64,000 nt of DNA, from the NCBI GenBank assembly GCA_019873625.1, contig JAIOAW010000010.1, positions 1 through 64,000 of the forward strand, in the 5' to 3' direction. Shown in pieces: positions 3,001 to 27,272 of this stretch. Source of the DNA: Chloroflexota bacterium (GTDB lineage Bacteria; Chloroflexota; Anaerolineae; UBA1429). The position numbers and the translations under genes are program-made. The number at the start of each line of letters is the position of its first letter. Position 1 is the first letter of the stretch. The notes under the pieces are model-generated. The model searched no databases. It was not told the origin of the DNA and worked only from the letters and a program-made list of their open reading frames with translations.

Positions 3001-3613
3001 TCAGACGCTGAATATTCCGATGGATTACCTCGCTCAAAAGGAGGGCGAGCAAGCCCTCATCCTCAGCAAAGAGGGCCAGGGGCGGCTGTACTATCGCTTG
3101 GGGCTGCGTTACGCGCCCAAAGACCTGCAACTGGCCCCGCTCGATCAGGGGTTCGTGGTGGAACGGCGCTACGAGGCGGTGGATGACCCGGCCGACGTTC
3201 AGCAGGATGCCGAGGGCGTGTGGCACATCAAGGCGGGGGCGCGCGTGCGCGTGCGCCTGACGATGGTGGCCCCTACGCGGCGCTACCACGTGGCGCTGGC
3301 GGATCCGCTCCCGGCGGGCCTCGAACCGCTCAACCCCGCCCTCGCCGTGACGGGGAGTATCCCGCAAGACCCGGCCGATACCTCGCGCGGCGCGTATTGG
3401 TGGTGGCGGTGGACCTGGTACGAGCACCAAAACCTGCGCGATCAGCGGGCTGAGGCCTTCGCTTCGCTCCTGTGGGAGGGCATTCACACCTACACCTACG
3501 TGGCGCGGGCCACCACGCCGGGCGAGTTCATCGTGCCGCCGGCCAAGGCCGAGGAGATGTACGCCCCTGAGACCTTTGGCCGCAGTGGGACGGATCGCGT
3601 CGTCATCGAGTGA
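2..3613 (+). CDS. Alpha-2-macroglobulin family protein, 5' end cut off by the window
   Basis: Large secreted or lipid-anchored protease-trapping protein of the bacterial alpha-2-macroglobulin family. The frame is open from base 2, so the N-terminus, including any signal peptide or lipobox, lies outside the window. Visible are repeated macroglobulin (MG) beta domains, the A2M domain around the LPDNLTEYRVMA stretch, and the thioester motif YECTEQ with its cysteine codon at 2126-2128. An alpha-helical thioester/complement-like domain (LQNLQNSDGGFPIW, then helical repeats) follows. The C-terminal receptor-like domain carries ADPLPAGLEPLNPAL, usual in bacterial members. The family is thought to trap attacking proteases by covalent thioester linkage. 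No pbpC-type transglycosylase partner is visible in the window. The 3' end meets a convergent gene at a shared terminator. Confidence 0.93.
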   Translation, partial: GPHFVGEAATAKVQAQYYAGGPLAGAEVHWVVSASPGSYHPPKWEDFDFGIWAPWWFSFRRWGEPAIETDHVKEFDGLTDAAGVHVLRIAFEAVEPPRPTVVRAEASVMDVNRQAWAASTDMLVHPASLYVGLRSQPMFVERGKPLRVEAIVVDLDGTPKPGVEIALRAVRLKWQYLKGEWQEVETDEQTCTVTSQAEPVSCTFQTPTGGTYRLSATIVDEQGRPNLTQITRWVSGGEQPSVGRIEQEEVTLIPDRAEYQPGDVAQILVQAPFAPAEGILTVRRLGLVHEERFRIEGPSYTLQVPITEDDIPNVWVQVDLVGEAPRLGPDGAPDPRLPKRPAYASGNLKLSVPAYERTLTVEATPRQAELEPGGETTIDLRVLDAQGRPVRGAEVALVVVDEAVLALTNYQLADPIGVFYAERDAGVNDYRLRQYVLLVNPEQLLDQAAGARRVKMMSAVPTAMPAPMATMTVEMAEAAPGAEQAAQPIRLRSDFNPLALFAPEVTTDADGTASVSVKLPDNLTEYRVMAVAVAGERQFGKGESRLTARLPLMVRPSAPRFLNFGDRFELPVILQNQTDAPLEVQVAVQAANLILTGSAGKAVTVPARDRVEVRFGAATDQAGTARLMIGAASGPWADAAQVTLPVYTPATTEAFATYGVIDQGAIAQPIIAPSGVFTQFSALEITTSSTALQALTDAFLYLLAYPYECTEQIASRILAVAALRDVLEAFQAEGLPAPEEIDRAMARDIETLQNLQNSDGGFPIWTKGRDSWPFYSIHAAHALARARQKDYPVSEEAIQRALAYLRDIESHYPHWYSQDVRYSLSAYALYTRLQLGDADPAKARALLDQAGLENLQPEALGWIYNVLVGDAASREALQKIERYLANRVVETAGAAHFATSYREEEGYVLLASDRRADGIILEALIKGHPKSDLIPKLVNSLLAHRKAGRWGNTQENVFILLALDRYFATFEAQTPDFVARAWLGEDYLGQFAFKGRTKEYQTLNIPMDYLAQKEGEQALILSKEGQGRLYYRLGLRYAPKDLQLAPLDQGFVVERRYEAVDDPADVQQDAEGVWHIKAGARVRVRLTMVAPTRRYHVALADPLPAGLEPLNPALAVTGSIPQDPADTSRGAYWWWRWTWYEHQNLRDQRAEAFASLLWEGIHTYTYVARATTPGEFIVPPAKAEEMYAPETFGRSGTDRVVIE

Positions 3614-20502: not shown

Positions 20503-21249
20503 TTAGGTGCGCTCTTGGCTTTGGGCCTTGCGCCAGACCTCATATTCGGCGCGGGCCTCTTCGTTCAAGGGATAGTATTTGCGCAAATCTCCCCCTTGAG
20601 AAAGGCGCAGGCGCGTGAATTCCTCCCATTCCGAATGGGCAAGCGCCCGCTCGACGAGTTGGGAGGCTAGGGCGATGGGCACGACCACGGCGCCGTCGTC
20701 GTCGGCAATGATGATATCGCCCGGCATCACGAGGACGTTGCCGCAAGCGATGGGTACGTTCACGGCATGGGGAAAGATGTTCGTCTGCGTGTGAAAGTTT
20801 GGCGTAACCCCTCGCAGCCATAGGCCCAGGCCGAGTTCTTTGACCTGCGGAAAATCTCGGATGCAACCGTCTATCACCACGCCGATGCCACCGCGCCCCT
20901 TAAAGTAGGTGAGCATCATCCCCCCAAAGACGCCGCTCATCATATCGCCGCGCGCGTCCACCACCACCACATCGCCCGGCTGGGTGTGATAGAGCACATG
21001 GCGGTGCAGTTGACGTTCGGGGTCTTGGTATTCGCCGATATTGTGAAGGTCTTCGCGCTTGGGCATAAATTGCAGCGTCAGCGCCGGGCCGACGATCTTT
21101 TTGCCCGGGCTGAACGTCACCGGGCCGACGATGTGCGGGTTGCGGATGCCCAAACGGTGCAGTTCGCCGGCGGCGGTGGCGGCGCTGATATTGTAAAGCG
21201 CCTCGATCATCTCTTTGGGCGGGCGTTGGATATCGGGTGTTTCGATCAT
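20503..21249 (-). CDS. RraA family protein (HMG aldolase / demethylmenaquinone methyltransferase-like)
   Basis: 248-residue member of the RraA-like fold, which includes the RNase E regulator RraA and class II 4-hydroxy-4-methyl-2-oxoglutarate aldolases. Visible: SAATAAGELHRLGIRNPHI, PGDVVVVDARGDMMSGVFGG, GIGVVIDGCIRDFPQV (aldolase metal/substrate loop GG..R..D), and VMPGDIIIADDDGAVVVP. The GDxxxAxxxG..R-D residues expected for a metal-dependent lyase are present, so an aldolase or decarboxylase role is more likely than RNase regulation, since the longer C-terminus and neighbours are metabolic. The start codon at 21249 follows a purine-rich AAGGGGGAACG. Confidence 0.87.
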   Translation of the reverse strand: MIETPDIQRPPKEMIEALYNISAATAAGELHRLGIRNPHIVGPVTFSPGKKIVGPALTLQFMPKREDLHNIGEYQDPERQLHRHVLYHTQPGDVVVVDARGDMMSGVFGGMMLTYFKGRGGIGVVIDGCIRDFPQVKELGLGLWLRGVTPNFHTQTNIFPHAVNVPIACGNVLVMPGDIIIADDDGAVVVPIALASQLVERALAHSEWEEFTRLRLSQGGDLRKYYPLNEEARAEYEVWRKAQSQERT

Positions 21250-21323: not shown

Positions 21324-21356
21324 ACGGATTTTTGAGAACAAGTCCTGAAAAATCTA

Positions 21357-21384
21357 TTGACTTTTCCCCTTTGTGTGCTATAAA
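21357..21384 (+). promoter_or_regulatory. Promoter of the structured RNA at 21391-21491
   Basis: TTGACT (21357-21362), 16-bp spacer, TATAAA (21379-21384). The predicted start near 21391 falls right at the beginning of the closing stem of the RNA candidate. Confidence 0.7.
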
Positions 21385-21390
21385 TAAAAA

Positions 21391-21491
21391 TAGAAGATGC
21401 CATCAAACCCGAAAACCGTGATGAGGTCACGGAAACCCCATAGGGGTAGCCTGTGGAGGCGTAGGGTTTGAGGCATTTTCATTTTTACAGA
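21391..21491 (+). ncRNA. Candidate small structured RNA with cloverleaf-like fold
   Basis: Compact RNA candidate with its own promoter and a U-rich end. The closing helix pairs ATGCC (21397-21401) and AAACCC (21405-21410) with GGGTTT (21465-21470) and GGCAT (21473-21477), with a small internal loop between. Inside it are three hairpins: CCGTGA-TGAGG-TCACGG (21416-21432), CCCC-ATA-GGGG (21436-21446) and GCCT-GTGG-AGGC (21449-21460). TTTTCATTTTT follows. It is far AT-richer in its flanks than the surrounding genes. It could be an sRNA, an unknown riboswitch for the downstream dehydrogenase, or a small mobile palindrome. I do not recognise an Rfam family. Confidence 0.6.
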
Positions 21492-21692
21492 TAGTTACGA
21501 AAGCGGCTTTCATCACAATAGATGTGTAGAAAGCGTCCCTTTTGCTCTTCTTTGTCGTTCATCCTTGCCTGGAGAGATATTCCTGATTGACTTTTGCCAA
21601 ATCTAACCCCTCACTTGAGCCGCGTCAAGCGGGAATGCCGCCCTTGCTTTTGGCCCACGAGGTATGGTATCCTGCGGGCAGGAGGCGAGCCG
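21492..21692 (+). other. Non-coding stretch before the dehydrogenase
   Basis: No gene or clear promoter seen. The stretch is AT-richer than its surroundings up to about 21600 and then resumes the usual composition. GGAGGCGAG (21681-21689) is the ribosome binding site of the next gene. Confidence 0.5.
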
Positions 21693-22736
21693 ATGAAAGC
21701 CCTGATGAAGACAGCCCCCGGCCGGGGGCATGTGGCCCTGTGCGACGTGCCCGAACGCGCACCGCAGGCGGATGAGGTGCGTATCGCGGTGAAATACTGC
21801 GGCATTTGCGGCACCGATCTGCACATCGAGGCCGATGAGTTCCCGAATGACCCGCCGGTGATTATGGGCCACGAGTACTGCGGCACCATCGTAGAGGTGG
21901 GGAGTGCGCTCGCCGGCGCTTGGCAGGTGGGTGAGCGCGTGGTGGGCGAACTCCACACGGGCGCTTGCGGCACGTGCTTCTTGTGCCGGGCGGGCAAACC
22001 GCACATCTGCCCCCATAAACGCGCCCTCGGCTCGCGCACCGATGGCGCCTTTGCCGAGTTTCTCACCGTGCCGGGTTGGCTGGTGCACCGCATCCCCGAT
22101 GGGGTGCCTTGGGAAGTGGCTGCCCTTTCGGAACCGTTTGCCATTGCCGCGCACTGCTTGGTCGAACGGGGGGCGCTCGGCGGAGTGCGGCGGGTGCTCA
22201 TCTCGGGGTCCGCGACGATGGGGTTGATGAGCGTCATTTGGGCGAGGCGCTTGGGCATAGAGGAAATCCTTGTCTCGGGGACGGACCTCGATGCAGCGGA
22301 GCGCTTTGCGCTCGCGCGGGAACTGGGGGCCACTTGTACGGTGAACGTCCAGCGCGAGGACCTTCGCCAAGTGGTGATGGAGCGGACGGAGGGCCAGGGG
22401 GTGGATGCCTGGGTCGAGTGCTCCGGGTCGCCCGCGGCCATCTCGCAAGGGGTGCCCCTCGTCAAACGGACGGGCCAAGTCGTGCTCATCGGCCTTGTGG
22501 GGGAGGAGACAATTCCCGTGCCGTGGAACACGCTCCTTTACCACGAACTGGGCCTTGTGGGGTGTTTCAGTTCGCCGCCTTCCAGTTGGGCCTTGGCGCT
22601 CTCTGCCGAGGCGGAGGAGGGACATAAACTCCGCCGCCTGGTGACGAGCATCTTGCCTTTGGAGCGTTGGGCGGAGGGTTTTGCGATGATGCGCCAAGGG
22701 CAAGGCGTGAAAATCCTTTTGGATATGCAATCTTAG
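21693..22736 (+). CDS. Zinc-dependent medium-chain alcohol/polyol dehydrogenase
   Basis: 347-residue MDR-family enzyme of the threonine/sorbitol dehydrogenase type, NAD(P)-linked oxidation of a secondary alcohol. Catalytic zinc residues are in KYCGICGTDLHI and MGHEYCG. The structural zinc lobe has four cysteines in GACGTCFLCRAGKPHIC. The Rossmann nucleotide loop reads SGSATMGLM, a loose GxGxxG. The ATG at 21693 has GGAGG a few bases upstream; the frame extends further upstream but without a better site. Substrate unknown; nearby VOC, aldo/keto reductase and 2-hydroxyacid dehydrogenase genes suggest sugar-acid or sugar-alcohol use. Confidence 0.9.
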   Translation: MKALMKTAPGRGHVALCDVPERAPQADEVRIAVKYCGICGTDLHIEADEFPNDPPVIMGHEYCGTIVEVGSALAGAWQVGERVVGELHTGACGTCFLCRAGKPHICPHKRALGSRTDGAFAEFLTVPGWLVHRIPDGVPWEVAALSEPFAIAAHCLVERGALGGVRRVLISGSATMGLMSVIWARRLGIEEILVSGTDLDAAERFALARELGATCTVNVQREDLRQVVMERTEGQGVDAWVECSGSPAAISQGVPLVKRTGQVVLIGLVGEETIPVPWNTLLYHELGLVGCFSSPPSSWALALSAEAEEGHKLRRLVTSILPLERWAEGFAMMRQGQGVKILLDMQS

Positions 22737-24204: not shown

Positions 24205-24842
24205 TCGTCTTCCTCGTCCTCTTCTTCGCCCTCCTCCTGAGGGCGCGCCTTTTCTTGCCGCGCCCTCGGAGGGGGTTCGGCCTTTTCATCGCGTTGGCGC
24301 AGAGAGGGGTCGAGTTGAAAGGCGCGGCGCCTATCTTCGCGCGCGCCTAGGCGATCTCCCAAGGCGGCGCGCGTTTCGGCGCGGTTCAAGTAGGCGAGGG
24401 CGTAATCCTCATCCAGGGCGAGGGCCTTGTCAAAGGCAGCCAGGGCCTGTCGGAACTCGCCGCGCCGGGCATAGAGCAAGCCCAGGTTGTGGTAGGCCAG
24501 CGTGTGGGCCGGCTCCAGTTTGAGGCATTGGAGATAGTCTTCCAAAGCCTCATCGAGCTGGCCGAGGTCAAAACGCACGTTGGCCCGGTTGTAATAGGCG
24601 TCGGCCCAATCCGGCGCGAGGGCGATGGCCTTGTCGTAATCGGCCAGGGCCTCTTGGGGGCGGTCTTGTTCTTCCAGCGCCAGGCCGCGCCATAGGTAGG
24701 CCTCGGCGCATTGCGGGTCGCGGGCGATGACCTGGGTAAAGGCCTCGATGGCCTTATCGAGGGCCTCCTCTTCATAGTGCGTTATGCCGCGCTCGAGGAG
24801 GTCGGCAGCCAGGCAAGGTCTCTGGGGCATCTCTTGGGCCAT
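24201..24842 (-). CDS. Tetratricopeptide repeat protein
   Basis: 213-residue protein made of about five TPR units (for example LERGITHYEEEALDKAIEAF, YLWRGLALEEQDRPQEALAD, YYNRANVRFDLGQLDEALED, YHNLGLLYARRGEFRQALAA and YLNRAETRAALGDRLGARED), ending in a charged tail GEEEDEEDD. TPR arrays are protein-binding scaffolds; no partner can be named. No signal peptide is visible, so it is probably cytoplasmic. ATG 24842 lies 14 bases after the stop of the 2-hydroxyacid dehydrogenase gene, suggesting co-transcription. The open frame extends back into that gene but not as TPR sequence. Confidence 0.85.
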   Translation of the reverse strand: MAQEMPQRPCLAADLLERGITHYEEEALDKAIEAFTQVIARDPQCAEAYLWRGLALEEQDRPQEALADYDKAIALAPDWADAYYNRANVRFDLGQLDEALEDYLQCLKLEPAHTLAYHNLGLLYARRGEFRQALAAFDKALALDEDYALAYLNRAETRAALGDRLGAREDRRRAFQLDPSLRQRDEKAEPPPRARQEKARPQEEGEEEDEEDD

Positions 24843-25973: not shown

Positions 25974-26002
25974 TTGAGCGGCCTTTCGTCCTATGGTATA
26001 GT
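25974..26002 (+). promoter_or_regulatory. Promoter for the restriction-modification pair
   Basis: TTGAGC (25974-25979), 17-bp spacer, TATAGT (25997-26002), 35 bases before the methyltransferase start. Confidence 0.65.
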
Positions 26003-26036
26003 CTTTGCGGTGCTTCGAAACTTGGAGGCGAGAGCA

Positions 26037-27272
26037 ATGGCAAAATCGAGTAGTTCACAGATCCCCTTGCTTCAAAGTACCCAAAACGGCATGCCGACGA
26101 TTCCTAGCAAAGTAACGCCCGATACTCCTCTTGAGGCTTTGAATCTAAACTGGAGTGAACGTGATTTGCCTGAAAGAGAACGCACAAAGCACGTTCACAG
26201 GTTGCATCCTTATTTGGGTAAGTTCATTCCGCAGTTGGTCGAGATCTTTTTACGCAAATACTTTCAACGAGGGCAAACAGTTCTGGATCCTTTCTGCGGC
26301 TCGGGTACGACGCTCGTTCAAGCGAATGAACTGGGCATCCACGCAATAGGCTACGACATTTCCTCTTTCAATGTTCTATTGTGTCGAGCCAAAACAGCGC
26401 ATTATGATTATGTGAGACTTCGGCGCGAAGTGATGAATATTCTTGAGAGAACACGTCTCTCCTCCTTGGGAGAACAACAGCTAAAATTATGGGGTAGAGA
26501 GCAAGAAACAAAGATGTTCCTTGCTGTTACCGATGATGATTATCTGCGACGATGGTTCGCCCCTCAGGCTCTATATGAACTGCTTACTTATCGCTATTGG
26601 ATCGAACATGGGGATTATGAATATAAGGATCTACTCAAGATCATCCTCTCACGTTCGGCTCGGTCAGCGCGTTTGACGACTCATTTTGATCTCGATTTCC
26701 CTAAAGAGCCGCAGACAGAGCCATATTACTGCTATAAGCATTCACGCATATGCAAGCCTACGACGGAGGCTCTCAAGTTCCTGCATCGCTACAGTTTGGA
26801 TACTCTTCGTCGCATCCGAGAGTTTGCCGCAGTACGCACGGATGCTCAAGTGAGCATTATTCATGGCGATGCGCGAGAGGCCGATTTCCCTCCTGTGGAT
26901 GGCGTCATCACCAGCCCTCCTTACGTTGGGTTAATTGATTACCATGAGCAACATGCTTATGCTTATCACCTATTAGGCCTAGAGGATAGGCGTGAATGTG
27001 AGATTGGTGCGGCGGCAGGAGGTAGAGGAATAAAAGCGCAAGAAGAATATAAGCGACAAATAGCCCAAGTTTTTCGCCGAGCGGCAAGTGTAATGCCTCC
27101 GGGAGGCCATATGATCGTCGTAGCAAATGATTCTGCGAATCTGTATGGGGAAATAGCGGTCTTATCAGGATTAGAGGTTGAGTATGTGGTTCACCGCCAG
27201 GTCAATCGCCGCACGGGGCGGAGAGCAGGTGAATTCTATGAGTCAGTATTTATCTGGCGTAAACCATCTTAG
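26037..27272 (+). CDS. Site-specific DNA methyltransferase (N4-cytosine type likely)
   Basis: 411-residue DNA methyltransferase, the modification partner of the adjacent endonuclease. Motif X-like RLHPYLGKFIPQLV is near residue 57, motif I DPFCGSGTTL at 84-93 binds S-adenosylmethionine, and the catalytic motif IV is TSPPY at 292-296. TSPPY favours N4-cytosine over N6-adenine methylation, and the long stretch between motifs I and IV is the probable target-recognition region. ATG 26037 has GGAGG 8 bases upstream. Composition is far AT-richer than the neighbours (24 of 60 bases are G or C at 26401-26460, against 41 of 60 at 23881-23940), a sign of horizontal acquisition. Confidence 0.9.
   Translation: MAKSSSSQIPLLQSTQNGMPTIPSKVTPDTPLEALNLNWSERDLPERERTKHVHRLHPYLGKFIPQLVEIFLRKYFQRGQTVLDPFCGSGTTLVQANELGIHAIGYDISSFNVLLCRAKTAHYDYVRLRREVMNILERTRLSSLGEQQLKLWGREQETKMFLAVTDDDYLRRWFAPQALYELLTYRYWIEHGDYEYKDLLKIILSRSARSARLTTHFDLDFPKEPQTEPYYCYKHSRICKPTTEALKFLHRYSLDTLRRIREFAAVRTDAQVSIIHGDAREADFPPVDGVITSPPYVGLIDYHEQHAYAYHLLGLEDRRECEIGAAAGGRGIKAQEEYKRQIAQVFRRAASVMPPGGHMIVVANDSANLYGEIAVLSGLEVEYVVHRQVNRRTGRRAGEFYESVFIWRKPS

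Follow-up and report, generated by a model that had tools for sequence, protein, structure and literature searches.

The 443 bases that separate the start of an RraA-like gene (21249) from the ATG of a dehydrogenase gene (21693) in the 64,000-nt stretch of Chloroflexota DNA analyzed here (the window) raise a simple question: what is the compact, RNA-like element within them, and with which gene does it work? The first-pass annotation had described the gap as gene-free and the element as a four-way-junction RNA of about 90 bases that belonged to no known class, perhaps a new riboswitch or sRNA class. The promoter (TTGACT-16-TATAAA), long closing helix, three perfect hairpins and U-rich end that it listed are all present in the sequence (Table 1). 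The length of the gap also stands, but the gap is not gene-free, since its minus strand holds the remnant of a DUF3800 gene.

Table 1. Features of the RNA locus and its flanks, in window positions.
Feature	Position	Strand	Basis or remark
RraA-like aldolase family gene (PF03737), outside the module	20503..21249	-	flanking gene
RNA promoter, TTGACT (21357-21362), 16 nt, TATAAA (21379-21384)	21357..21384	+	read in sequence
Four-way-junction small RNA gene, ~90-96 nt	21391..21486	+	z = -7.7; covariance models R1-R3; covariation
Closing helix, 5′ arm, bulged A at 21402	21397..21410	+	fold and alignment
Hairpin 1, CCGUGAUGAGGUCACGG, best-conserved part of the RNA family	21416..21432	+	alignment of members
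Hairpin 2, ACCCCAUAGGGGU	21435..21447	+	fold and alignment
Hairpin 3, GCCUGUGGAGGC	21449..21460	+	fold and alignment
Closing helix, 3′ arm	21464..21476	+	fold and alignment
U-rich terminator-like end, overlapping the convergent remnant's stop codon	21476..21486	+	sequence, locus comparison
DUF3800 gene remnant, MNDKEEQKGRFLHIYCDESR joined to FRNYL and stop	21485..21562	-	translation; tblastn; intact genes of homologous loci lie at this site in this orientation
Zinc MDR dehydrogenase gene, threonine-dehydrogenase-like, outside the module	21693..22736	+	flanking gene; relatives without the RNA

The element is a genuine bacterial small RNA that has a promoter and a terminator-like end of its own, and it is not in Rfam. 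Its closing helix pairs ATGCC.TCAAACCC with GGGTTTGAGGCAT (13 pairs, a single bulged A), all three inner hairpins are perfect, and TTTTCATTTTT lies 3′ of the closing helix. The minimum free energy is -48.2 kcal/mol (z = -7.7), none of 200 dinucleotide shuffles was as stable, and when both strands were scanned along the whole window it ranked as the strongest GC-corrected 96-nt fold; the structure is therefore not a product of chance. The second-best GC-corrected fold of the window, at 24493-24588 (+), lies antisense to a TPR-like repeat gene. The promoter was absent from the list produced by a consensus promoter scan of the window because its -10 box ends in A. It is conserved across the family, with a TATAAT-like -10 box 6-9 nt upstream of the RNA in most members; the promoter of the Nitrospinota copy reads TTGACTTTCCCCCTTCTTTCGCTTTAAAT vs. 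TTGACTTTTCCCCTTTGTGTGCTATAAAT in the window. ARAGORN found no tRNA or tmRNA in the window, and an Rfam scan gave no family for the RNA at the gathering threshold and nothing relevant in the gap up to E = 10. The resemblance to hammerheads and fluoride aptamers noted in the first-pass annotation was coincidental, and the Rfam model of neither matched; the GAAA...GUA pieces behind it correspond to the junction strands CGAAAA...GUAGG, and the Rfam family DUF3800-VIII has CGAA...GUAG too.

Homologues were sought by BLASTn in 40 relatives, plasmids and phages, and no matches were found. A covariance model built from the window RNA alone returned four members with strong matches (E 1e-22 to 1e-27), all in genomes of a different family within the class. 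The shared core was also run as a DNA pattern through genome and viral collections, its matches then being filtered by the covariance model. The confident members number 13, the window and 12 others, with matches at E 1e-17 to 1e-30, which are rough values from home-made models. They come from Anaerolineales and from other Chloroflexota, a Chloroflexus among them, with one each from a Nitrospinota, a Candidatus Stahlbacteria and an IMG/VR viral contig. The homologues preserve the fold with compensatory changes of the kind that the first-pass annotation had asked for: standard pairs fill 98.3% of the pair cells in the 13-sequence alignment, two-sided changes are seen at 12 of the 28 pairs, none of 500 shuffles reaches these pairing values, and pairing falls below 46% when partners are slid by one column. 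The unpaired bases that are conserved are CGAAAA at the 5′ junction, the loop UGANG in hairpin 1 and, on the 3′ side, the junction strand that ends in AGG; the variable parts are only loops and outer flanks.

The distribution of the family is patchy and crosses phyla. The RNA is present in 4 of the 14 genomes of the richest bacterial family and, under strict filters, in 2 of the 400 genomes of a phylum sample (its match L072 and L022 are one locus), and it is single copy in the source genome. Since members were found through a core-sequence pattern, more divergent ones are under-sampled. Weak covariance-model matches (L007-L012) were rejected; L007 and L010, read in detail, are without the conserved core and look like chance, and the remaining core-pattern matches failed the covariance model. 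The viral copy, L049:7702-7796 (-), lies alone on a phage-like IMG/VR contig that has exonuclease and RecT genes; its fold is kept, with no obvious promoter or U-tract.

To which gene, then, does the RNA belong? Its multi-helix junction lies on the same strand as the MDR dehydrogenase gene and ~200 nt upstream of it, as a riboswitch or leader RNA for that gene might, but such a role is extremely improbable. The RNA has its own U-rich end over that distance ahead of the gene, the orthologues of the dehydrogenase in relatives (62-70% identity, same family) have no RNA and sit close behind other metabolic genes, and none of the other members lies ahead of a dehydrogenase gene of this kind, the setting in which the first-pass annotation had proposed to look for homologues. 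On these grounds the riboswitch reading fails, as the RNA does not hold a conserved 5′ leader position before one class of gene; of the "new riboswitch or sRNA class" originally suggested, the autonomous sRNA outside Rfam stands.

The constant neighbor is instead a convergent DUF3800 gene. Of the other 12 members, nine have the RNA tail-to-tail with a DUF3800 gene or what is left of one, the 3′ ends overlapping by 5-9 nt; counting the window, the figure is 10 of 13 and the overlap 2-9 nt. Facing DUF3800 genes (PF12686) have their stop codon overlapped by the RNA in L003, L014 (= L004), L027, L033, L035 and L037, broken ones stand at the corresponding place in L022, L025 and L046, and no DUF3800 was found near the RNA in three members (L005/L015, L006/L016 and L049). 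The two genes are also paired when viewed from the protein, as a 298-genome sample of the class contained just two closely related DUF3800 proteins (E < 1e-150), and the RNA accompanies each of them. Covariation together with a recurrent DUF3800 neighbor places the RNA among the DUF3800-associated RNA motifs as a kind. The second DUF3800 gene of the source genome (contig C8:8993-9637; L073) is of a different type, PADLOC DUF3800_VII, and no comparable RNA was found at its 3′ end. More distant DUF3800 genes of the class (L052-L055 and L060) face a structured RNA that converges on their stop codon, and Moorella phage MCACPph1 (L065) has one at 3205-3305 (-), convergent with its DUF3800 gene (z = -8.4); the RNAs of distant DUF3800 genes are smaller and occupy the corresponding place. 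Those of L052-L055 (Chloroflexota) and L065 form three-way junctions, are unlisted and have no Rfam match. Rfam DUF3800-VIII matches L060:2332-2396 (-) at 66 bits and, below threshold, L064:2335-2417 (-), arranged as in the window family.

In the window, the protein gene survives as a remnant in which the first 20 codons are fused in frame to the last codons (stop TAA), the middle having been deleted. By tblastn, 12 of 12 residues are identical to residues 3-14 of the L037 protein (GRFLHIYCDESR) and 13 of 14 to that of L033, and FRNYL fits FR.YL, the usual C-terminal end of DUF3800 proteins. Since the remnant begins like the L037 protein and ends in the way usual for the family, a DUF3800 gene that has since lost its middle once stood in the window. 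The RNA is therefore an orphan, intact and possibly still transcribed, but without an effector of its own. Internal deletions like this one, with both ends and the RNA kept, are found in L022 and L025. Loss of the protein and retention of the RNA in all three loci is what would be expected if the protein were the costly part.

What the protein does is suggested by its relatives and neighbors. DUF3800 proteins of the family loci match PADLOC PDC-M04A, a predicted phage-defence candidate (PDC), at ~1e-50. Type III restriction genes lie near the RNA in L005 (strong match) and L006 (weak), and neighbors elsewhere are a type IIG enzyme (L027), a type I/II methylase (L033), an OLD/GajA-like ATPase (L035) and PDC-S05 (L072); the start of the DUF3800 gene often abuts an upstream restriction gene. 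In the window, a DNA N6/N4 methyltransferase gene at 25974-27272 (+), ~4.5 kb downstream (PADLOC MTase_II, 1.4e-96), may be a further trace of defence genes. The DUF3800 protein of the module is predicted to have an RNase H-like fold: the nearest structures to a weak AlphaFold model from five sequences (pLDDT 56) are RNase HII and RNase HI, none of which passes E 0.001. The model is in line with the RNase H fold stated for DUF3800, which has been linked to Cas12a2 systems (PMC10910872), and with that of phage P1 RlfA (PMC3710099). A PDB sequence search with the protein returned no match, none of the viral relatives sought by peptide patterns was confirmed, and little or no literature was found on DUF3800 function or on DUF3800 with retrons.

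On balance, we favor the view that the RNA and the RNase H-like DUF3800 protein form a two-gene module in which a fixed RNA partner binds and controls the protein, in an anti-phage or toxin-like role. Wherever the module is complete, its genes face each other with overlapping 3′ ends, and the RNA, which has a promoter of its own, folds into a rigid four-way junction with conserved junction strands and a conserved hairpin 1. It would most likely bind the DUF3800 protein, and could then either hold it inactive, as an antitoxin does, or position its substrate, as a cofactor does. The RNA family with its fold and promoter, the tail-to-tail arrangement of the genes and the remnant are shown by the sequences, whereas physical binding, a nuclease activity with its control, and a part in defence are what we infer here. 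The occurrence of the RNA without the protein in several genomes and on the phage contig agrees with an inhibitor role, although it does not prove one. We put forward only tentatively, as a rather doubtful extension, that DUF3800 proteins with tail-to-tail RNAs are widespread RNase H-fold defence toxins, each inhibited by its RNA, and that the phage RNA is a decoy, which for L049 is possible. If so, cells would keep a harmless RNA after loss of the toxin, and a phage could disarm its host with the RNA alone, encoded in an exonuclease-RecT region.

Other explanations of the pair were considered. That the RNA and DUF3800 gene are a mobile element, and the copies without an internal coding part its non-autonomous derivatives, would account for the patchy spread and for the three copies that have lost internal sequence yet retain both ends. 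A direct repeat of 13 nt (12/13) at 21356-21368 and 21586-21598 does flank the RNA and remnant in the window, though perhaps by chance. A mobile element is nevertheless unlikely, as the other loci have no shared flanking repeat and no fixed outer boundary, the single other locus with a flanking repeat of at least 8 nt has an unrelated sequence, the source genome has a single copy, and the DUF3800 start often adjoins a restriction gene. A predicted nuclease fold adjoining a structured RNA, in a protein family tied to Cas12a2 systems (PMC10910872), might bring to mind an RNA-guided nuclease, with the RNA as cofactor or guide to a nucleic-acid target; a guide is quite unlikely, because no stretch within the RNA varies as a spacer would. 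We think it very unlikely that the RNA is only a bidirectional terminator at which the DUF3800 mRNA also ends. It does sit exactly between convergent genes, with a long closing helix and T-rich stretches on both strands, but a terminator needs neither the conserved unpaired junction and loop bases nor a promoter of its own with three covarying inner hairpins.

RNAs beside DUF3800 genes had already been catalogued, without an assigned role. What the present family adds is that the tail-to-tail geometry is fixed, that there is a link to restriction genes and to a protein listed as a phage-defence candidate, that the protein has repeatedly been lost beside an intact RNA, and that a phage has the RNA alone. 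These additions lead to concrete questions, namely whether the RNA binds the DUF3800 protein and whether it switches the protein on or off. The job of the pair should be easier to test with a source genome in which a gutted protein gene lies beside an intact RNA gene.

The proposed module has parallels among known systems. In type III toxin-antitoxin systems (ToxIN), a nuclease is controlled by an adjacent small structured RNA, the antitoxin RNA consisting of tandem repeats upstream of the ToxN-like gene. The module proposed here is similar in that a small structured RNA from an adjacent gene would control a nuclease, but the window RNA is single and without tandem repeats, it converges on the 3′ end of the protein gene instead of preceding it, and the DUF3800 fold is RNase H-like rather than that of ToxN; the RNA therefore falls outside the type III class. 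Phage P1 RlfA and NamA-like proteins offer a likeness on the protein side, as they belong to the DUF3800 family, have an RNase H fold and are linked to conflict systems (PMC3710099). RlfA differs from the protein of the module in that the two share only ~28% identity. On the RNA side, a close parallel is DUF3800-VIII (RF03075), one of a set of DUF3800-associated RNA motifs reportedly described by Weinberg et al. in 2017. The same work is named as the source of the DUF3800 RNA motifs in PMC10910872. Like the window RNA, DUF3800-VIII is small and convergent with a DUF3800 gene, with its 3′ end at the stop codon, and it shares the long closing helix and the CGAA...GUAG junction strands; it has one inner hairpin in 64 nt, whereas the window RNA has three in ~90 nt and a different conserved hairpin. 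The window RNA belongs to none of the DUF3800 families of Rfam release 15 (I, VIII and IX confirmed by name), whose models gave no match to it even at E 10. Novel with respect to Rfam only, so that a published match outside Rfam is possible, it is best read as a new and larger family of a known kind, the DUF3800-associated RNAs, because it shares its junction strands with DUF3800-VIII, which has only one inner hairpin.
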